From assembly GCF_937890665.1 (NCBI RefSeq), contig NZ_CALADU010000102.1:1-16625 (forward strand): a stretch of 16,625 nucleotides of DNA. Reading direction: 5' to 3'. Under the pieces are notes generated by a model. The model worked only from the letters and a program-made list of their open reading frames with translations. It had not been told where the DNA came from and ran no database searches. The first letter of the stretch is position 1, and each line of letters opens with the position of its first letter. Positions 4,270-16,625 of the stretch are shown in pieces. Source of the stretch: an uncultured Subdoligranulum sp. GTDB taxonomy: Bacteria; Bacillota_A; Clostridia; Oscillospirales; Ruminococcaceae. The position numbers and the translations under genes are program-made.

Positions 4270-5820
4270 ATGCAACAGCAAGACGCAAAACGCTATGACG
4301 TGGTGGTCATCGGCGCCGGCAACGGCGGCCTGACCGCGGCCATCCGGGTACTGCAGGGGGGCTATTCCTGCCTGCTGCTGGAAAAACACAACCTGCCCGG
4401 CGGCTTTGCCACCAGTTTCAAGCGGGGCCGCTTTGAGTTTGAAGCCAGCCTGCACGAACTCAACGACTTCGGTTCCCCCGACGCCCCCGGTGACATCCGC
4501 ACCCTGTTCCGGGATCTGGGCGTGGAGGATAAGATCGACCGGGTGCGCATCCCCGAAGCCTACCACCTGATTACCACCGATAAAAAATACGACTGCATCA
4601 TGCCCTTCGGCGTGCAGGCTTTCATCAATAAGATGGAGGAGTACGTGCCCGGGTCCCGGCCGTCCATGATCGCCTTCTTTGAACTGTGCGAAGAAGTGCG
4701 CGCCGCCCAGACCTATTCCAACTCGGTGAACGGCAACACCGACTCCGGGTATATGAAGTCCAACTTCCCCAACTTCGTCAAGGCGGGCAGCTATTCCGTC
4801 AATCAGGTGCTGGATGCCCTCAAAATGCCCAAGGCGGCACAGGACATCCTTAACGCTTACTGGTGCTATCTGGGCGTGGACTGCGACCGTATGAGCTTCC
4901 TGCACTACGGGTCCATGGTCATCCGCTACATCACCCGGGACGCTTGGATGCCTAAGATGCGCTCCCACGAAATCAGCATGGCGATGGACAGCCGCATCCG
5001 GGAACTGGGCGGGGAGATCTGGTACCATTCGGAGGCAGAGCAGATCTTGACCGAAGCGTCCGGGGCGATCCGAGGGGTACGCCTCACCGATGGCACCGTC
5101 ATCGAAACCCGGCACGTCATCGCCAACTGTTCGCCCCATCTGGTGTTCGGCAAAATGCTGGACCAGAAGTCCGTCACCGAAGCGCAGATTCGGGCTACCA
5201 ATGCCCGTACCTTTGCGGGCCGGGGCTTTACCCTGTTTTTGGGGCTTAACAAGTCGGCACAGGAGCTGGGCATCCAGAGCCATAACTACTTTATCTATGA
5301 CACCGCCGACTCGGTCAAGCAGTATGACATGATGCGCAAGGTGGAAACCAACCATGTGCAAGCCACGGTCTGCCTGAACAATGCCTACCCCGAATGCTCC
5401 CCGGAAGGCACCTGCATGATGTACTTTACCACCATGTTCATGTCCGATGACTGGGGTAACGTAACCGAAACCGATTACTTCAAGGCCAAGGACCGTGTGG
5501 CCGAGGATATGATCCGGGTCTTTGAGCGGGAGACAGGCTGCAAAATCCGCGATGCCATCGAGGAAATCGCCGTGGCGTCCCTCACCACCTATGCCCGGTA
5601 CTGCGGCCATCCGCAGGGTGTCATCTACGGCTACGAAGCCGCTGACTGGGACGCACTGATGCCCCGCCTGATGATGATGAAAGAGGACGCGGCCCTGCAC
5701 CCCGGCCTGCGTTTTGCGGGCGGTTATGCCATGCGTTCCAGCGGGTATTCCAGTGCCTATGTGTCGGGGGATATTTCCGGCCGTCAGACTGTGGGCGATC
5801 TCAAAAAGGAGGCGCAGTGA
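4270..5820 (+). CDS. FAD-dependent oxidoreductase of the phytoene desaturase / retinol saturase family
   Basis: 516 residues, normal for CrtI/RetSat-like proteins (COG1233). An N-terminal dinucleotide-binding fold is clear: 'YDVVVIGAGNGGLTAA' with GxGxxG at Gly15-Gly20, then an acidic Glu at the end of the second strand in 'LLLEKHNLPGG'. The following 'FKRGRFEFEASLHEL' matches the family's substrate-side motif. The C-terminal FAD motif 'GLRFAGGYAMRSSGYSSAYVSG' is present near residues 475-497. Family enzymes desaturate, saturate or isomerise polyene or other hydrophobic substrates. AAGGAGG at 4258-4264 fixes the start. It lies between a TetR regulator and a flavin/[2Fe-2S] reductase, and the latter's ribosome site is inside the end of this gene, so they are likely made together. 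There is no other carotenoid gene here (no crtB/crtE), so phytoene is an unlikely substrate. Confidence 0.85.
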   Translation: MQQQDAKRYDVVVIGAGNGGLTAAIRVLQGGYSCLLLEKHNLPGGFATSFKRGRFEFEASLHELNDFGSPDAPGDIRTLFRDLGVEDKIDRVRIPEAYHLITTDKKYDCIMPFGVQAFINKMEEYVPGSRPSMIAFFELCEEVRAAQTYSNSVNGNTDSGYMKSNFPNFVKAGSYSVNQVLDALKMPKAAQDILNAYWCYLGVDCDRMSFLHYGSMVIRYITRDAWMPKMRSHEISMAMDSRIRELGGEIWYHSEAEQILTEASGAIRGVRLTDGTVIETRHVIANCSPHLVFGKMLDQKSVTEAQIRATNARTFAGRGFTLFLGLNKSAQELGIQSHNYFIYDTADSVKQYDMMRKVETNHVQATVCLNNAYPECSPEGTCMMYFTTMFMSDDWGNVTETDYFKAKDRVAEDMIRVFERETGCKIRDAIEEIAVASLTTYARYCGHPQGVIYGYEAADWDALMPRLMMMKEDAALHPGLRFAGGYAMRSSGYSSAYVSGDISGRQTVGDLKKEAQ

Positions 5821-5821
5821 T

Positions 5822-6985
5822 ATGAAATTCCAGAAACAAATCTTTGGATTTATGGACATGCTCCGCTTCAAGGAGCTGGTGCCCAACCGCCGCAAGGCAC
5901 TGGCCTCCGGCACCGACACGCCGCTGCCCAAACGGTATCGGGTCAATGAACTGGCCAAAGCGCTGCATCCCGGCCGCATGCAGGTGGAAGTGACCGCGCT
6001 GCGCCCCCTCACCGACGGCATGACGGAACTGACCTTCCGCCGCACCGATGCCGACGCCTTCCCCTTCTTCCGGGCCGGACAGTATGTATCGCTGCAGGGA
6101 ACCGTGGCGGACAGCGTGGTCAGCCGCCCCTACTCCATCTCCTCCAGCCCCCGGGAAGCACTGGAAAACAAGCTGACGCTGGGGGTGGAGAACGCCGGTT
6201 TCTTCTCGGGCTATCTCAACCGGGAAGTCAAGGTGGGGGACCGCTTCCTCATGACCGAACCGGCCGGCGAGTTCCACTACGAAACGCTGCGGGATAAACC
6301 CCAAATCGCCTGCATCGCGGGCGGCAGCGGCATCACGCCCTTCCTCTCCATGGCAAAAAGCCGCAAGGAAGGGGACGAATCCTATGAGATGATCCTCTTC
6401 TACGGCGCCCGGGACGAAGCCCATCTGGCGTATAAGGCAGAGCTGGATGCGCTGGCTGCGGAGGGCGCCATCAAGGTGGTCTATCTGCTCAGCGATGAGA
6501 CCCGCGAAGGCTACGAACATGGGTTTGTGACCGCCGCCCTGCTCAGCCGGTATCTGTCCATCCCTGACGTGACGTTCTTCCTCTGTGGCCCGGCGGCTAT
6601 GTATGAATTTGTGGGCAAGGAACTGGAGCCTTTCGCCCTGCCCCGCAAGGCTGTGCGCCGGGACGCCGCCTGCTGCGGCAACCGTGCGGTGGAAAATCCC
6701 CGCACCTTTAGCCTGACTGTCCATATCCGGGACAAGGTTTGGAACATCCCCGCCCGAGAGGACGAGACCCTGCTGGCCGCCATGGAGCGGGCCGGCATCC
6801 CCGCCCCCAACAAGTGCCGTGCCGGCGGCTGCGGTTACTGCCACAGCCAGTGGCTGGCCGGGGAATACACCGTGGCCGAAGGCCGGGATGGCCGCCGTCT
6901 GGCGGACCGCAAATTCGGTGGAATCCACCCCTGCGTGACCTATCCCCAGAGCGATATGGAGATCAACGTACCTCCGGCTGAATAA
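5822..6985 (+). CDS. NAD(P)H-dependent FAD / [2Fe-2S] oxidoreductase (ferredoxin reductase-ferredoxin fusion)
   Basis: 387 residues in three parts. After a 50-residue lead, an FAD domain (about 52-155) carries RPYS at 102-105 in 'SRPYSISSSP'. A nucleotide domain (about 160-270) carries GGSGITP at 167-173 and 'FLCGPAAMYEF' around Cys255. A C-terminal plant-type ferredoxin domain (about 295-387) has Cys332, Cys337, Cys340 (C-x4-C-x2-C) and Cys371 as cluster ligands. This order is that of electron-supplying reductases which pass electrons from NAD(P)H via FAD to the [2Fe-2S] centre and on to a partner. The ATG at 5822 is chosen because AAGGAGG (5806-5812), inside the upstream gene, is nine bases before it; the frame is open further upstream but without a ribosome site. 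The likely partner is the upstream FAD enzyme. The unit ends at a terminator at 7003. Confidence 0.9.
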   Translation: MKFQKQIFGFMDMLRFKELVPNRRKALASGTDTPLPKRYRVNELAKALHPGRMQVEVTALRPLTDGMTELTFRRTDADAFPFFRAGQYVSLQGTVADSVVSRPYSISSSPREALENKLTLGVENAGFFSGYLNREVKVGDRFLMTEPAGEFHYETLRDKPQIACIAGGSGITPFLSMAKSRKEGDESYEMILFYGARDEAHLAYKAELDALAAEGAIKVVYLLSDETREGYEHGFVTAALLSRYLSIPDVTFFLCGPAAMYEFVGKELEPFALPRKAVRRDAACCGNRAVENPRTFSLTVHIRDKVWNIPAREDETLLAAMERAGIPAPNKCRAGGCGYCHSQWLAGEYTVAEGRDGRRLADRKFGGIHPCVTYPQSDMEINVPPAE

Positions 6986-7097: not shown

Positions 7098-8231
7098 ATG
7101 GGGAATGGGAAGATGAAAAGCGGATGGGGCCAGCGCTGCGTGGCCTTTTTTAAAAAAGAAACGGTGCTGTGTATCGCGGCGGTGCTGGCGGTGGTGTCCA
7201 TGTGCATCAATCCACCCAGCGCGGCCTACGCCGGGTATATCGACTGGAACACACTGGCCATGCTGTTCAGCTTGATGGCGGTGATGAAAGGCTTCCAGAA
7301 AGCAGGGCTGTTTGTCTGGCTGGGCAACTGCCTGCTGCGCCGTACCGATACCACCCGCAAAATGCTGTTCGCGTTGGTGTTCCTGCCCTTCTTTTGCAGC
7401 ATGGTCATTACCAACGATGTGTCGCTGATCACCTTTGTGCCCTTCGCCCTCATCGTGCTGCATATGGCCGAGCAGGATTGGCTGGTGGTGCCCTTGGTGG
7501 TACTGCAGACGGTGGCAGCCAACTTGGGCAGTATGCTCACCCCCATGGGCAACCCCCAAAATCTGTATCTCTACACAAAATCCGGCCTGTCTTTTGGGAA
7601 GTTTGTGCTGCTGGTACTGCCTTACGCGGCGGTGTCCGCCCTCTGTCTGGCGCTGCTGATTCTGCGGTGCGACTCGGTGCCCGTGCAGGCCGCCCCGGTC
7701 CAAAGCAAGCTGGCCGGGCCGGCTACGCTGGGGGTATATGCCGCCGGGTTCGGTCTTTGCCTGTTGGCGATCTTTGACGTGCTGCCCCCCTTGGCGGTGG
7801 CAGCGGTGGTGGCGGCGGTACTGCTGTTCTATGACCGTCAGGTCTTGGCTTCGGTGGACTACGCTCTGCTGGGGACCTTTATCGCCTTTTTCCTGTTCAT
7901 CGGCAATCTGGGAGACGTGGTCTGGTTCCGGGAGTTTCTGGCCTCGGTGCTGGAAGGCCACGTGGTTCTGGTGTCGGTGCTGGCCAGTCAGGTCATCAGC
8001 AATGTGCCCGCGGCGCTGCTGCTCTCCGGCTTTACCGACCAATGGCGGGATTTGATCGTGGGCTGCAATCTGGGGGGCTTGGGTACCCTCATCGCCTCGA
8101 TGGCCAGCCTCATCTCCTACAAGATGGTGGCCCAGAACAGCCCCGAACGGCGCAACAGCTATCTGGTTTGGTTCACCGTCTGCAACGTGGGTATGCTGGT
8201 ACTGCTGTTGGTGCTCAACTGGATTTTATAA
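7098..8231 (+). CDS. Ion-transporter-superfamily permease (ArsB/NhaD/CitMHS-like)
   Basis: 377 residues, almost wholly hydrophobic, about 10 membrane segments. The arrangement fits the ion transporter superfamily (citrate transporter/ArsB/NhaD, COG1055-like): an early 'WNTLAMLFSLMAVMKGFQKAG', then 'MVITNDVSLITFVPF' in the first half, answered in the second half by 'SQVISNVPAALLLSGF' and 'NLGGLGTLIASMASLISYK'. The paired 'NDVSL' and 'SNVPA' hairpin-type motifs are typical of these inverted-repeat carriers. 'LGSMLTPMGNPQNLYLY' is also characteristic. Substrate (a carboxylate, Na+/H+, arsenite or another anion) cannot be told from sequence. Two starts are possible: ATG 7098 with GAGG very close (two bases), or ATG 7113 (five codons later) with only weak purine-rich sequence; 7098 is kept. 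It has its own promoter and terminator. Confidence 0.85.
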   Translation: MGNGKMKSGWGQRCVAFFKKETVLCIAAVLAVVSMCINPPSAAYAGYIDWNTLAMLFSLMAVMKGFQKAGLFVWLGNCLLRRTDTTRKMLFALVFLPFFCSMVITNDVSLITFVPFALIVLHMAEQDWLVVPLVVLQTVAANLGSMLTPMGNPQNLYLYTKSGLSFGKFVLLVLPYAAVSALCLALLILRCDSVPVQAAPVQSKLAGPATLGVYAAGFGLCLLAIFDVLPPLAVAAVVAAVLLFYDRQVLASVDYALLGTFIAFFLFIGNLGDVVWFREFLASVLEGHVVLVSVLASQVISNVPAALLLSGFTDQWRDLIVGCNLGGLGTLIASMASLISYKMVAQNSPERRNSYLVWFTVCNVGMLVLLLVLNWIL

Positions 8232-9148: not shown

Positions 9149-9817
9149 TCAGGTGACCAGCCGATAGACCAAACAAGGCCGACCGCCGGTGCCGTAATTC
9201 ATGTCGCCGGTGACCTGTCCCTGCTGGGCCAGATACCCCATGTAGCGCCGTACCGTCACCACCGACAGACCCGACGCCGCGGCAATCTCCTCGCAGGTGT
9301 AGGCCTGATCCGGGGCAGCCCGCATACAGGCCAGCACCCGCTCCTGCGTTTGGGGCTGCATGCCCTTGGGCAAGGTGGTGGGGGCAGGGGGCGCGGCGTG
9401 CATCAGGTGGTCCAGCGCGCTCTGGTCCAAGCTGCCGCCCCGGATGGCGCTGCGCCGCTGGCAGAAGGCATCCAACGCCCGGCAGAACCGGTCGTAGGCG
9501 AAGGGCTTGACCAGATAATCCACCACGCCCAGCCGGGTCAGAGCTTCCACGGTGGCGGCGTCGTTGGCGGCGGTGATCATAATGACATCCGCCTCCACCC
9601 CGGCGCCGCGGATGGCCCGCAGCAGTTCCAGCCCGTTCATCTGGGGCATATAAAAATCCAAAATCACCAAATCGGCGGCGTTTTGCCGCAGCCAGTCCAG
9701 CGCACGCCGGGGCTGGTTGAAGGTTTGGGCCACCACAAAGCGGCCATCCCGCTCGGTATACCGGCGGTTGAGTTCGGTAATCATCGGGTCGTCTTCCACA
9801 ATGACAACACGGTACAT
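9149..9817 (-). CDS. Response regulator of the CitB/DcuR/DpiA type
   Basis: 222 residues. The receiver domain (about 1-120) has the acidic pocket Glu8-Asp9-Asp10 in 'VVIVEDDPMI', the phospho-acceptor Asp54 in 'LVILDFYMPQMNG', Thr82 in 'IMITAAND' and Lys104 in 'DYLVKPF'. The C-terminal part (about 155-222) is a winged helix-turn-helix: 'YTCEEIAAASGLSVVTVRRYMGYLAQQG' then a 'YGTGGRPCLVYRL' wing, the layout of the CitB family which controls uptake and use of citrate, malate or C4-dicarboxylates. It starts five bases after the kinase stop codon and is closed by a strong terminator. The stimulus and target are unknown; the permease gene about 0.9 kb past its 3' end on the other strand is a candidate target. 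Confidence 0.9.
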   Translation of the reverse strand: MYRVVIVEDDPMITELNRRYTERDGRFVVAQTFNQPRRALDWLRQNAADLVILDFYMPQMNGLELLRAIRGAGVEADVIMITAANDAATVEALTRLGVVDYLVKPFAYDRFCRALDAFCQRRSAIRGGSLDQSALDHLMHAAPPAPTTLPKGMQPQTQERVLACMRAAPDQAYTCEEIAAASGLSVVTVRRYMGYLAQQGQVTGDMNYGTGGRPCLVYRLVT

Positions 9818-11671: not shown

Positions 11672-12367
11672 TTGGAAGGTTTTAAAGAAGCTTTGGTCGA
11701 TGCCTTGGCCAACGAAACCGCCTTTACCATTCCGGTGCTGGGGGGCATCCCCATCAGCTCGGCGGTGTTGGTAACCTGGATTATCATGGCGTTCTGGATC
11801 ATTGTGACCTTGCTGGCTACGCGCAATTTGAAGGTGCGCGACCCCGGTAAGGTGCAGGTGGTGCTGGAGTCCGCCGTGGAGTTTTTGAACGGGTTCGTCA
11901 AGCAGACCATCGGTCCGCACTGGCGTCCCTTTGCCCCCTACTTGGGCAGCGTGGCGCTCTACATCGGTTTGGCCAACATCATCAGCATTTTCGGCCTGAC
12001 GCCCCCCACCAAGGACGTCAGCGTGACCGCCGCACTGGCGCTCATGAGTTTGGTGCTGATCTACGGCGCACAGTTCCGGTATAACGGTCTGCGCGGCGGT
12101 ATGAAGCGGTTCGCCGAGCCCATCCCCGTTTTGGTCCCCATCAACCTGATGGAAATCGCCATTCGTCCTCTGGCGCTGTGCATGCGACTGTTCGGCAACG
12201 TTTTGGGTGCTTTCATCATCATGGAGATCATCAAGTATCTGGTGCCCGCCGTGGTGCCCGCCGTCTTCTGCATCTACTTTGATCTGTTCGACGGCCTGAT
12301 CCAGACGATTGTCTTTGTATTTTTGACCGCTCTGTTCGCAGGCGAGGGCATTAAGGAAGAAGAGTAA
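11672..12367 (+). CDS. atpB: F1Fo ATP synthase subunit a
   Basis: 231 residues, at the short end for bacterial subunit a. The essential stator Arg is Arg172 in 'RPLALCMRLFGNVLG', and the conserved Gln is Gln211 in 'DGLIQTIVFVFLTALF'. 'KVQVVLESAVEFLNGFVKQTIG' and 'PYLGSVALYIGLANI' are also typical. About five membrane segments. With the c ring it forms the proton half-channels. The start is TTG at 11672, seven bases after GAGGTG (11659-11664); the nearby ATG at 11668 leads to a stop after five codons and is too close to the ribosome site. The gene is the first of the operon: no atpI or atpZ is visible between it and the divergent kinase gene. Confidence 0.95.
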   Translation: MEGFKEALVDALANETAFTIPVLGGIPISSAVLVTWIIMAFWIIVTLLATRNLKVRDPGKVQVVLESAVEFLNGFVKQTIGPHWRPFAPYLGSVALYIGLANIISIFGLTPPTKDVSVTAALALMSLVLIYGAQFRYNGLRGGMKRFAEPIPVLVPINLMEIAIRPLALCMRLFGNVLGAFIIMEIIKYLVPAVVPAVFCIYFDLFDGLIQTIVFVFLTALFAGEGIKEEE

Positions 12368-12429: not shown

Positions 12430-12648
12430 ATGTCTATCGGAATCATCGCCGCAGGTCTCGCAGTTCTCACCGGTTTTGGCGCCGGCATCGGCATCGGCAT
12501 CGCCACCGGTCATGCCAGTGATGCCATCGCCCGTCAGCCCGAAGCTTCCGGCAAGATCAACAGCACCCTGCTGCTGGGCTGTGCCATGGCAGAAGGTACG
12601 GCCATCTTCGGCTTCATCACCGCGCTGATCATCATCTTCGTAGGTTAA
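12430..12648 (+). CDS. atpE: F1Fo ATP synthase subunit c
   Basis: 72 residues, two membrane helices joined by the polar loop Arg35-Gln36-Pro37. Helix 1 carries the packing motif with Gly at 15, 17, 19, 21 and 23. The ion-carrying carboxylate is Glu55 in 'GCAMAEGTAIFGF'. Compared with the well-studied Na+-type c subunit of Ilyobacter (Gln32, Glu65, Ser66, Tyr70), the matching positions here are Ile22, Glu55, Gly56 and Phe60, so the Na+ ligand side chains other than Glu are missing; this predicts proton coupling. Strong AGGAGG eight bases upstream of the ATG. It is followed within 17 bases by atpF, whose ribosome site is even stronger. Confidence 0.96.
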   Translation: MSIGIIAAGLAVLTGFGAGIGIGIATGHASDAIARQPEASGKINSTLLLGCAMAEGTAIFGFITALIIIFVG

Positions 12649-12665: not shown

Positions 12666-13154
12666 ATGCTGGAATTCCAGCCGTGGACGATCTTTTTTAC
12701 CATCGTCAACCTGTTGATTTTGTACTTCTTTTTCCGCAAATTCCTGTTTGGGCGCATCAATGCCGTGCTGGAACAGCGGGAAGAATTGATCCGCACCCAA
12801 GTCTCGGAGGCCGAGCAGCAGAACGCTGAAGCCAAAAAGACCAAGGAAGAATATGAATCCAAGCTGGCCGGTGCCCGGCAGGAGGCCGCCGATCTGGTGG
12901 CGGATGCCAAGCGCCGTGCCGACGAAGCCTACGCCCAGCGTATGGCGCAGGCGGAAGCCGATGCCAAGCAGACTGCGGCGGAAGCCGAGGCCCGCATTGC
13001 GGCGGAGCGCAGCGAGATGCTGCGTTCTGCCCGGGGCGAGGTGGCCCATCTGGCCGTCTTGGCTGCCAGCGAGGTAGCCGGCAAGCGGCTGGACACCGAC
13101 TCTGACCGCGCCTTGGCGGAAGAATTTTTGGCAAAGGTGGGTGAGCAGGCATGA
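12666..13154 (+). CDS. atpF: F1Fo ATP synthase subunit b
   Basis: 162 residues, normal length. A single N-terminal membrane helix (about 8-26, '[19 protein letters not shown]') is followed by '[12 protein letters not shown]' and a long charged Ala/Glu/Lys/Arg-rich helix (about 35-135) that forms the peripheral stalk dimer, ending 'SEVAGKRLD'. It links subunit a in the membrane to delta on top of F1. The ribosome site AAGGAGGTG (12650-12658) is a long match to 16S rRNA. Its stop codon overlaps the start of the next gene by four bases (ATGA), indicating coupled translation with the delta-alpha fusion. Confidence 0.95.
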
Positions 13155-15190
13155 GCGAAGCGACCGAGCGTTACGCCGCAGCCCTGTTTGGGGCTGTGCA
13201 GGGCGACGCAGGGGCCGTGCGCGCTGCCGCCGAAGCCCTGATGGCGGATACGAAGCACTGGAACGTGCTGGTGAGCCCCGCCGCCACTGAACCCGAAAAG
13301 AAAGAGCTGCTGGCCGGTGCGCCCCAGTTGGATGGACAGGATGCCCTGAAAGCCTTCCTGCAGCTTCTGTTGGAAGAGGGCCATCTGGAGGCCCTGCCCG
13401 AGATTCTGCCCGAGTTTTCCCGTCTGGCGCTGGCCGCACAGGGGGGCGTGAACTGCGTCGTGACCTGTGCCCGGCAGCCGGATGAAGCCACGCAGGAGGC
13501 CGTGCGCAAGGCGGTCTGTAAGCTGCGGGGCGTCCAGAACGCGGTGCTGCAGATCAAGATCGACCCCAGCCTGCTGGGCGGCTTTGTGCTGGACGTGGAC
13601 GGCGTGACCTATGACCGCAGCGTCAAGGGCCGTTTGGACCGTCTGGCCCGGGGCATGAAGGATGCCCCCGCCGAGGAATCGGTGGACCAGTTGGCCGCCC
13701 AGATGAAGGAAGCCTTGTCCGGCAGCGCCGGCGATCCCATGGCCACCGAGACCGGCCGCGTGCTGGAGATCGGCGACGGCATCGCCAACGTCAGCGGCCT
13801 GCGCCACGCCGTCTACGGCGAGCGCGTTGAGTTCGAGAACGGCACCGCCGGTCTGATTCTGGACCTGCGCCGCAAGCGCACCGGCGTGGTGCTGATGGGC
13901 TCTGCCGAGGGTCTGACCGAGGGCAGCTTGGTGCGCCGCACCGGCCGTCCCGCCGATGTGCCGGTGGGTGAAGCGCTGATCGGCCGCACGGTGGATGCGC
14001 TGGGCCGTCCCATCGACGGTCTGGGTCCCATCGACTGCACCGAGACCCGCCCCATCGAACATGAGGCCCCCGGCGTGGTCAGCCGTGAACCCGTTACCCA
14101 GCCCATGCAGACCGGCATTCTGGCCATCGACGCTATGGTGCCCATCGGCCGCGGCCAGCGCGAATTGATCATCGGTGACCGCCAGACCGGTAAAACTTCC
14201 ATCGCCGTGGATGCCATCCTGAACCAGAAGGGGCAGGATATGATCTGCATCTACGTGGCCATCGGCCAGAAGGCATCCACCGTCGCCCGCCTGCGGGAGA
14301 CCCTGAAAAAGCACGGCGCCATGGCATACAGCATCATCGTGTCTGCCCCCGCGGGCGAAGGCGCGCCGATGCAGTACATCGCCCCCTATGCGGGCGCGGC
14401 CATGGGTGAATACTTCATGTCCAAGGGCAAGGATGTGCTCATCGTCTACGATGACCTGTCCAAGCACGCAGTGGCCTACCGGACCCTGTCCCTGCTGCTG
14501 CGCCGCTCCCCCGGCCGTGAAGCCTATCCCGGCGACGTATTCTATCTGCATTCCCGCCTGTTGGAGCGTGCCTGCCGCCTGACCAAGGAATACGGCGGCG
14601 GCTCCATGACAGCGCTGCCCATCGTAGAAACGCAGGCCGGCGACGTTTCGGCCTACATCCCCACCAACGTTATTTCCATCACCGACGGTCAGATCTATCT
14701 GGAAAGCGGACTCTTCTTCTCGGGCCAGCGTCCGGCTGTCAACGTGGGTCTGTCGGTGTCCCGTGTTGGCGGCGCTGCCCAGACCCGGGCCATCAAAAAG
14801 ACCGCCGGTACGCTGCGTATCGATCTGGCCCGCTACCGCGAGTTGGAAGTCTTTACCCAGTTCAGCTCCGATCTGGACCCCGAGACCCGGCAGGCGCTGG
14901 ATCACGGTAAGCGGATGATGACGCTGCTGCGTCAGCCGCTCTGCGCGCCCATGTCGGTAAGCCGTCAGGCCATCATCCTGTACATCGCCACGGCGGGCCT
15001 TCTGTCCGACGTGCCGCTGGACAAAGTTTCCGGCTTTGCACAGGACTTTGTGGACCTGCTGGAGCGGGAACAGTCCGCCCTTGTGCAGGAAATCGATGAA
15101 ACGGGGGCGCTGTCCGGCGCCGCCACCGAGCAGATCCGCACCACGCTGCAAAGCTACAAAGAGCAGGTGAGCGCCACATGGAAAGCATAA
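13151..15190 (+). CDS. atpHA: Fused F1 ATP synthase delta-alpha subunit
   Basis: One uninterrupted frame of 679 residues. Residues 1-169 are a whole delta subunit: N-terminal helical domain from '[13 protein letters not shown]', then '[12 protein letters not shown]' and the typical end '[26 protein letters not shown]'. Residues from about 172 on are a whole alpha subunit: a short N-terminal helix ([15 protein letters not shown]), '[18 protein letters not shown]', the P-loop GDRQTGKT at 342-349, '[12 protein letters not shown]', and the arginine finger Arg538 in '[10 protein letters not shown]'. The alpha part (about 505 residues) is full length for the family, so nothing is lost at the junction. 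Delta and alpha are usually separate neighbouring genes. Alpha is present three times per F1 and delta once, so the fusion raises a stoichiometry question. The start overlaps atpF by four bases; the end overlaps atpG by 13. All key residues are intact. Confidence 0.93.
13673..13684 (+). promoter_or_regulatory. Possible internal translation start for free alpha subunit
   Basis: Inside the delta-alpha junction, GAGG (13673-13676) lies five bases before an in-frame GTG (13682-13684, Val178 of the fusion). Initiation there would give a 502-residue protein starting [12 protein letters not shown], the usual alpha length. The other in-frame start candidates nearby (ATG at 13655, 13703, 13739) have no ribosome site at a normal distance. 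The GAGG is short and may be chance. Confidence 0.25.
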
Positions 15191-16101
15191 AGGAGATCCG
15201 CACCCACATCGACAGTGTGCAGCAGACCCTGAAGATCACCAACGCTATGTACCTGATCTCCTCCTCCAAACTGCGCAAGGCTCGCCGTCAGCTCAACGAC
15301 GTGCAGCCTTACTTCGAGAAGGTCACCCGGACGATCTCGGACATTCTGCACCGCACCGAGGGCGTGGAGCATATCTACTTCGACACCCGGCCCGGCCGAC
15401 CCCACAAAGTGGGGTATATCGTCATCACCGGCGATAAGGGTCTGGCAGGTGCTTACAACCACAACGTGCTGCGGCTGGTGGACGAACGCCTTCAGCACGA
15501 GAGCGACCCCACGCTGTTTTTGATCGGGCAGGCAGGCCGTAACTACTTCCATCATCGGGGCGTGCCGGTGGACGGCGAGTTCATGTACACCGCACAGGAC
15601 CCCACGGTTTACCGTGCCCGGGAGATTGGCGAGACCTTCATCGAGCTGTTCCGCAAAGGACATCTGGATGAGGTCTACGTGGTCTACACCGAGATGGTCA
15701 GCCCCATGGCGATGGAACCCAAGATCATCAAGCTGCTGCCGCTGGACCGGGAGGCCTTCCCTTGGACGCCCCGCCGCAGCGCCGACGGCAGTGAGCGCCA
15801 CGTAGTGACCTACGTGCCGTCCCCCAACCACGTGCTCAACCACATCGTGCCGTCCTATCTGAAAGGGCTTCTCTTCGGCGCGCTGGTGGAATCCTTCTGC
15901 TCCGAGCAGAACGCCCGTATGACTGCCATGGACACCGCCACCGACAATGCCCGGACCCTGCTGAAAGAACTGTCGCTGCAGTACAACCGGGCGCGGCAGT
16001 CCGCCATCACGCAGGAGATCACCGAGATCGTGGGCGGCGCCCAGAATACCGGCGACGATTGGGACGATGACTGGGACGACGAAGAAGAAGCTGACCTGTA
16101 A
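15178..16101 (+). CDS. atpG: F1 ATP synthase subunit gamma with acidic C-terminal tail
   Basis: 307 residues; the usual length is about 285-290. The N-terminal coiled-coil helix is canonical ('[21 protein letters not shown]', '[12 protein letters not shown]'), as are '[15 protein letters not shown]' in the middle and the C-terminal helix '[29 protein letters not shown]'. After this normal end an extra tail of about 19 residues (289-307) is almost all Asp, Glu and Trp ([15 protein letters not shown] at its end). Gamma is the rotating shaft; its C-terminal end sits in the top opening of the alpha3-beta3 head. The ATG at 15178 is seven bases past AGGTGA (15165-15170), and overlaps the end of the fused delta-alpha gene by 13 bases in another frame, indicating translational coupling. 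Confidence 0.94.
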
Positions 16102-16146
16102 CTTCCGGCATTGGACCGGACAACGATAGAGAAAGGAAAGACTGCT

Positions 16147-16625
<479 letters not shown>

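Follow-up and report, generated by a model that had tools for sequence, protein, structure and literature searches.

In a stretch of 16,625 nucleotides from an uncultured Subdoligranulum sp., hereafter the window (contig NZ_CALADU010000102.1 of NCBI RefSeq assembly GCF_937890665.1), the delta and alpha subunits of an F-type ATP synthase are encoded as a single polypeptide, which keeps the delta N-terminal domain (NTD) as well as the delta C-terminal domain (CTD). The fusion is confirmed as real and is not an assembly error. Textbook F1 has one delta and one peripheral stalk, and the initial annotation of this DNA rightly pointed out that the fusion poses a copy-number problem. The delta-alpha chain is probably used uncut, every alpha then carrying an N-terminal delta, with the CTDs placed on the alpha N-termini and at least one b2 stalk. 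Delta-alpha fusions as such are already known; the form in the window differs from them in keeping the NTD.

The fused gene and its operon

The fused gene (13151..15190, forward strand) is one frame of 679 codons, running from an ATG at 13151 to a stop ending at 15190, with no internal stops. The protein matched Pfam OSCP over residues 6-167 (103.9 bits, nearly the whole model), ATP-synt_ab_N over 200-265, ATP-synt_ab over 322-537 and ATP-synt_ab_C over 544-668, while the alpha model TIGR00962 reached 743.5 bits over residues 183-673, nearly its full length (cut-off 484.45). The annotated reading of a single frame holding a full delta and a full alpha agrees with these matches, whereas its boundaries shift slightly: delta, drawn at residues 1-169, extends to about residue 165-168, and the alpha N-terminus, composed of the first residues and the N-terminal helix, occupies 169-197 instead of starting at about 172. 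The alpha catalytic residues, described as intact, are indeed present in the P-loop GDRQTGKT (residues 342-349; 14174-14197, forward strand, inside the alpha body) and in SVSRVGG (residues 535-541), which we take to be the arginine-finger motif.

Along the forward strand, the complete delta NTD comprises residues 1-105 (13151..13465), as delimited by Pfam and the structure model, and the CTD comprises residues 106-165 (13466..13645), as delimited by Pfam and the structure model; according to the account in PMC12229609, the delta CTD binds b in known enzymes. The junction (residues 166-197; 13646..13741), defined by the structure model and PDB comparison, is laid out as the last delta helix ending at 170, about seven residues, and the alpha N-terminal helix at 178-189, after which the alpha body defined by Pfam and TIGR00962 follows (residues 198-679; 13742..15187). 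The predicted mass of the whole protein is 72.6 kDa versus 54.8 kDa for alpha counted from Met169. This internal ATG (13655..13657, forward strand) lies at the position of a separate alpha start behind a weak Shine-Dalgarno sequence and is not conserved, being Ile or Leu in several relatives. In the +1 frame at Met169 there is a TGA within ATGA, likely a trace of an old ATGA gene overlap; no programmed frameshift is needed to read delta-alpha.

The window gene order is a, c, b, delta-alpha, gamma, beta, all on the forward strand: atpB (subunit a, 11672..12367) and atpE (subunit c, 72 aa, 12430..12648) were assigned by domain matches, atpF (subunit b, 162 aa, 12666..13154) shares its last 4 bases with the start of delta-alpha, atpG (gamma, 15178..16101) overlaps the end of delta-alpha by 13 bases, and atpD (beta, 16111..16625) is taken from the first start codon of its frame and truncated by the window end. 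These partners are intact except for the truncated beta, and epsilon lies beyond the window; it is of full length in a fused Gemmiger locus, L001. With alpha, beta, gamma, delta, a, b and c genes in one operon and an intact nucleotide-binding alpha (TIGR00962, P-loop), the enzyme belongs to the F-type. An N-ATPase identity was rejected, the TIGR03324 score of 601.1 bits being below the cut-off of 750.5 and the window order a-c-b-delta/alpha-gamma-beta, with delta present, not fitting the N-ATPase order beta-epsilon-...-a-c-b-alpha-gamma without delta as described in PMC5709465. The mycobacterial b-delta type was likewise rejected, as the window b is a separate 162-aa open reading frame and so is not fused to delta.

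Several other genes are located upstream. On the reverse strand, divergent to the ATPase operon, lie two regulatory genes. One (9149-9817) encodes a response regulator whose helix-turn-helix weakly matches DpiA, the other (9823 to about 11490) a Spo0B-type PAS sensor kinase, presumably CitA/DcuS-like. Since homologues of this regulator/kinase pair recur in the same stretch at 54 out of 140 other loci, both with and without the fusion, the ATPase operon may respond to, and be regulated by, an organic acid. An FAD-dependent oxidoreductase, a 2Fe-2S flavin reductase and a CitMHS-type transporter (4270-6985 and 7098-8231) precede them on the forward strand.

Structure, selection and known fusions

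In the model of the window protein (mean pLDDT 73), the delta NTD, most of the CTD and the alpha barrel fold well. Confidence is low at residues 161-200 (block means 52-65), around two helices, the final one of delta (158-170) and the N-terminal one of alpha (178-189). Values below 50 also occur in parts of the alpha nucleotide domain. The structure models are of single chains (mean pLDDT 73-74) and carry no stoichiometry information. By sequence, the best PDB chain over the whole length was 9nvl_A, an alpha without delta (667.5 bits), followed by 9jc1_I (580 residues, 652.9 bits), which spans the junction and is entitled 'ATP synthase delta subunit, ATP synthase subunit alpha'. For a query spanning the junction and its surroundings, the best PDB match was 9jc1, aligned in one stretch with a single-residue gap at the junction, and the top three Foldseek matches were the three delta-alpha chains of 9jc1.

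The NTD gave a dN/dS of 0.32 in 17 fused Gemmiger-type genes and also 0.32 in 18 unfused Flavonifractor-type genes, so no relaxation of the NTD was seen in the fused form; the NTD is under purifying selection in the fused Gemmiger-type genes. In these genes the delta domains ranged from 0.29 to 0.32, while alpha showed 0.175 versus 0.093 in the unfused set, that is, weaker constraint in the fused form, with 136 of 136 pairs used for the fused set and 122-129 of 153 for the unfused set, in which saturated pairs were lost.

The structure 9jc1 comes from the work of Ueno et al. (2025; PMC12229609), in which the delta NTD of the Bacillus PS3 enzyme was removed and the CTD fused to alpha. As described there, this deltaDeltaN-alpha enzyme carries one to three stalks by cryo-EM, about two on average by gel, and has an H+/ATP ratio of 5.8, which is doubled; it is argued that the NTD, located on the symmetry axis, restricts the stalks to one. 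According to the same account, the genes for delta and alpha are naturally fused in Acidaminococcus fermentans, with the NTD missing, and the enzyme is predicted to be multi-stalk; two UniProt entries with similar features are mentioned too. The initial annotation was not aware of a characterised delta-alpha fusion; the engineered and the A. fermentans NTD-less forms (PMC12229609) fill this gap. The window protein shares with the PS3 construct the joining of the delta C-terminus to the alpha N-terminus over a junction of near-equal length and hence has the CTD-alpha fusion of the deltaDeltaN-alpha type, but it retains the NTD (residues 1-105 of OSCP), and the PS3 construct lacks the epsilon CTD whereas epsilon of L001 is of full length. 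The A. fermentans form, compared by description only, is a natural delta-alpha fusion like that of the window, but has no NTD, like the CTD-alpha group described below. In Mycobacterium and Gordonia, a b-delta fusion occurs according to PMC5709465; there, as in the window, delta is covalently tied to a stator neighbour, but it is joined to b and leaves alpha free, whereas in the window it is joined to alpha. Among the open-licence PMC papers listed, judged by title and opening of the abstract, none dealt with a delta-alpha fusion of full length or with b-delta-alpha.

Recurrence of the fusion

The presence of the same junction in related genomes, proposed in the initial annotation as a check, was found in two ways. 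A search of a set of 5.8 billion proteins scored 7995 homologues. Each of the 120 listed has OSCP as well as alpha, 118 are 676-680 residues long, and 100% and 99% matches are among them; the few that are named are annotated 'F0F1 ATP synthase subunit alpha', one also 'Multifunctional fus...'. Among the 80 genome loci kept out of 573 relatives found, 27 were fused and 53 separate. The fused loci consist of 16 of Gemmiger type (L001-L014, L016, L018), L015, L019, L054, L055-L057, and five that are NTD-less or NTD-shortened (L022, L025, L045, L060, L061). The fusion also occurs in an isolate, Gemmiger gallinarum DSM 109015 (L006), whose genome contains a separate atpA as well.

That the fusion stems from an error of sequencing or assembly, or marks a second operon in decay, is accordingly highly improbable. 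The patchy occurrence of the fused operon in the genus, in 15 of 35 genomes, would suit such an origin, but both domains share one chain in all listed homologues and in the isolate, a recurrence that refutes an assembly artefact, and decay is further opposed by the dN/dS values of alpha and the delta domains in the fused set and by the intact operon partners, beta being cut only by the window end.

In a class survey of 148 genomes, 95 of them with atpA, OSCP and alpha shared one frame in 18, including G004, one of the 18 (G427) having an OSCP score slightly below the cut-off. A recheck covered 21 long-frame genomes besides G004, but not G040; it confirmed 17 of the 21 and did not confirm G382, G364, G389 and G352.

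Forms of the fusion in Oscillospirales

An Oscillospirales survey covered 295 genomes, 145 with OSCP, and all counts from its matches are lower bounds. In at least 39 genomes, OSCP and alpha share a frame of 521-784 residues; classified by frame and domain, these genomes include full or nearly full delta-alpha (at least 4), CTD-alpha (at least 25), CTD-CTD-alpha (at least 1, L086) and b-CTD-alpha (at least 9). In L102, L105, L106 and L117, the delta part was recognised in the alpha frame by Pfam OSCP, the custom HMM being silent. The NTD is absent in the CTD-alpha and b-CTD-alpha relatives.

The triple fusions, b-CTD-alpha, were found at L085, L089, L091, L092, L093, L095, L097, L098 and L107. 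A custom-HMM match to b lies in the fused frame of six of the nine (L085 drops out under stricter listing), and a hydrophobic N-terminal helix is present at all nine loci both in the fused b and in a separate b. With a triple fusion as the query, 119 of the 120 proteins listed (of 7992 scored) had 731-773 residues with OSCP and alpha, and many of these 119 carry a Pfam b match; the remaining short record, of 512 residues, lacks OSCP and lies on a contig equal in length to that of the query. The epsilon frames at these loci (86-131 aa) match the epsilon model only to position 87-97 of 142, and the epsilon C-terminal part thus seems to be missing. This part is inhibitory in known enzymes.

Other arrangements were also observed. 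Seven loci (L118, L119, L123-L127) have a stand-alone CTD of 73-78 residues, with no NTD seen, beside a separate alpha, and by the reasoning of Ueno et al. they may be regarded as multi-stalk candidates. L120 has a delta and a second CTD, and L121 a b-CTD that resembles the mycobacterial b-delta with the CTD only. In L056 and L057, subunit c forms two hairpins in one 149-residue frame.

Phylogenetic distribution

An IQ-TREE phylogeny was built from the alpha core only, excluding delta and b, for 87 of 140 rows (46 fused, 41 separate); L087 (G164, at a contig end) was too short and was excluded from the trees. On this tree the fused or separate state changes 9 times, 7 changes being forced by well-supported branches, and a FastTree phylogeny of all 140 rows gives 8 changes, counts that do not separate gain from loss and that include some long-branched rows. 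A single fused clade was rejected on the 87-row tree, the constraint lowering lnL by 581 (p-AU 9e-54). The triple fusions form one clade, of nine rows in the 140-row tree (100, starred) and of seven in the 87-row tree (100/100, starred).

Full fusions neighbour NTD-less ones or branch basally to them, namely L082 with L102, L083, and L055/L056 with L060/L061, the basal branch of L083 being unstarred and the tree giving no direction of change. Because they adjoin or underlie the NTD-less groups, an order in which fusion came first and NTD loss later would suit this topology. Six fused Gemmiger genomes also contribute alphas from separate operons (L133-L138; four in the reduced tree), and these branch far from the fused alphas.

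Internal starts and additional atpA genes

Internal starts were evaluated from anti-Shine-Dalgarno pairing before in-frame ATG, GTG or TTG codons within 29 codons round the alpha start, which covers starts of the Shine-Dalgarno type. A duplex energy of -6 or lower was present in 10 of 65 fused loci (median -2.1) versus 67 of 76 separate ones (median -8.1; p 4e-18), and none of the three start codons occurred in 17 of the 65 as against 0 of the 76. Background windows inside the fused alpha reached -6 or lower in 128 of 910 cases (median -3.0), a level from which the fused signal is not distinguished (p 0.45). Sites are kept elsewhere in the fused operons, at gamma (47/64), beta (45/61) and the fused gene's own start (49/60), counts in which L067, with its own delta open reading frame, is included as fused. 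In a 70-codon region with any start codon, 30 of 66 fused rows reached -6 or lower (4 of 66 with ATG only), L067 again being counted as fused and the figure having no matched wide background. No conserved internal start for alpha was thus found above background in the 29 codons of 65 fused loci, and free alpha from an internal start is therefore not a conserved feature.

In the window gene, the strongest candidate for an internal start around the beginning of alpha is the pair GTG178 and TTG181 behind GAGGA (13682..13693, forward strand, in frame; duplex energies -5.9 and -6.6), at which an internal start could operate in the window's own strain. Among the 17 Gemmiger rows, only the window reaches -6 or lower, none of its 16 relatives does, and five of the 17 have no start codon in the region.

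A shared open frame was also noted for gamma and beta, without a stop between them, in L108, L112, L121 and L096, the last of which also has a broken beta frame; if read through, such a frame would yield a gamma-beta chain. A start-like site precedes beta in all four (-9.0, -5.9, -5.9 and -11.1).

Of the 38 fused genomes in the order survey, 33 yielded no atpA besides the fused one; the other five, G251, G113, G315, G273 and G295, have a second, separate atpA. In the genus Gemmiger, that of G004, 12 of the 15 genomes with a fused atpA also have a separate one, which is fragmented in G331, while G009, G012 and G317 have the fused gene only. Since genome completeness is not given, a second atpA may be lacking only because the sequence is incomplete, and these absences are provisional.

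Stoichiometry of the fused enzyme

The outcomes listed in the initial annotation, three deltas, cleavage or free alpha, are the right set, and the first is favoured here, given the lack of a conserved internal start and of a second atpA in most fused order-survey genomes. An F1 containing one fused delta-alpha and two free alphas, supplied by internal initiation (codons 169-185) or by a second operon, is unlikely. It would resolve the 1:3 count, the window has a fair site at GTG178/TTG181, and most fused Gemmiger-genus genomes do encode another atpA; against this, that site has no counterpart of similar strength in the other Gemmiger rows, nearly a third of which lack a start codon at that place, 33 of 38 fused genomes across the order yielded no further atpA, and the alphas of the separate operons are distant from the fused ones in the trees.

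Cleavage of a chain made whole, at a flexible junction, to give ordinary delta and alpha with degradation of the surplus delta, appears quite unlikely. The low model confidence at residues 161-200 and the variability of the junction among relatives are compatible with it, and the idea is not absurd because seven loci combine a stand-alone CTD with a separate alpha. No conserved cleavage-like sequence was seen by eye among the junctions listed, however, and the addition of b to the same chain in one clade is hard to explain if the chain is always cut.

With the delta-alpha chain used uncut, each of the three alpha N-termini would bear a CTD, an arrangement seen in the engineered 9jc1, and at most one NTD would occupy the central crown site. 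At least one CTD would hold a b2 peripheral stalk, and two or three may do so; the fusion would turn the joint between head and stalk into a covalent one. Related lineages lack the NTD (CTD-alpha), and one clade has in addition acquired a fused b with a membrane anchor (b-CTD-alpha). Three deltas per F1 would be the simplest reading for the family because the chain is covalent, the start is lost and the alpha gene is single, and the chain presumably escapes cleavage. For the window enzyme, whose NTD is kept and selected, the crown is probably capped by a single NTD and the stalk number may be one; the two further deltas would then be idle or hold extra stalks. On the reasoning of Ueno et al., the retained, constrained NTD would argue for a single stalk and counts against several, whereas a multi-stalk enzyme would be the direct prediction for the NTD-less and triple forms. 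In stalk number, a three-delta enzyme could resemble the A/V-type ATPases, which according to PMC6131620 have two or three peripheral stalks held on top by non-catalytic head subunits; the subunits differ and membership is not claimed.

Implications for the ATP synthase family

It is possible, though this is advanced tentatively, that Oscillospirales harbour a natural, repeatedly evolved series of F-type enzymes, delta-alpha, CTD-alpha and b-CTD-alpha, with three deltas and up to three stalks per head. The natural chains force together the copy numbers 1 (delta), 2 (b) and 3 (alpha). The engineered enzyme of 2025 showed that the delta NTD determines how many stalks form and that this number is alterable (PMC12229609), and the natural family shows each step: separate, fused with the NTD, fused without it, and fused with b. 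If the series holds, the NTD-bearing form of the window would be a step before NTD loss, as the full fusions adjoin or underlie CTD-alpha groups (L082/L102, L083, L055-L061), the direction not being given by the tree. In b-CTD-alpha, each alpha would have a helix of its own anchoring it in the membrane, beside a separate b. At least one step is present in a cultured gut isolate, and the question of a natural multi-stalk ATP synthase is therefore testable by purification. With more stalks, the number of a subunits and the H+/ATP ratio would both rise, which would suit fermenters living at low proton-motive force.
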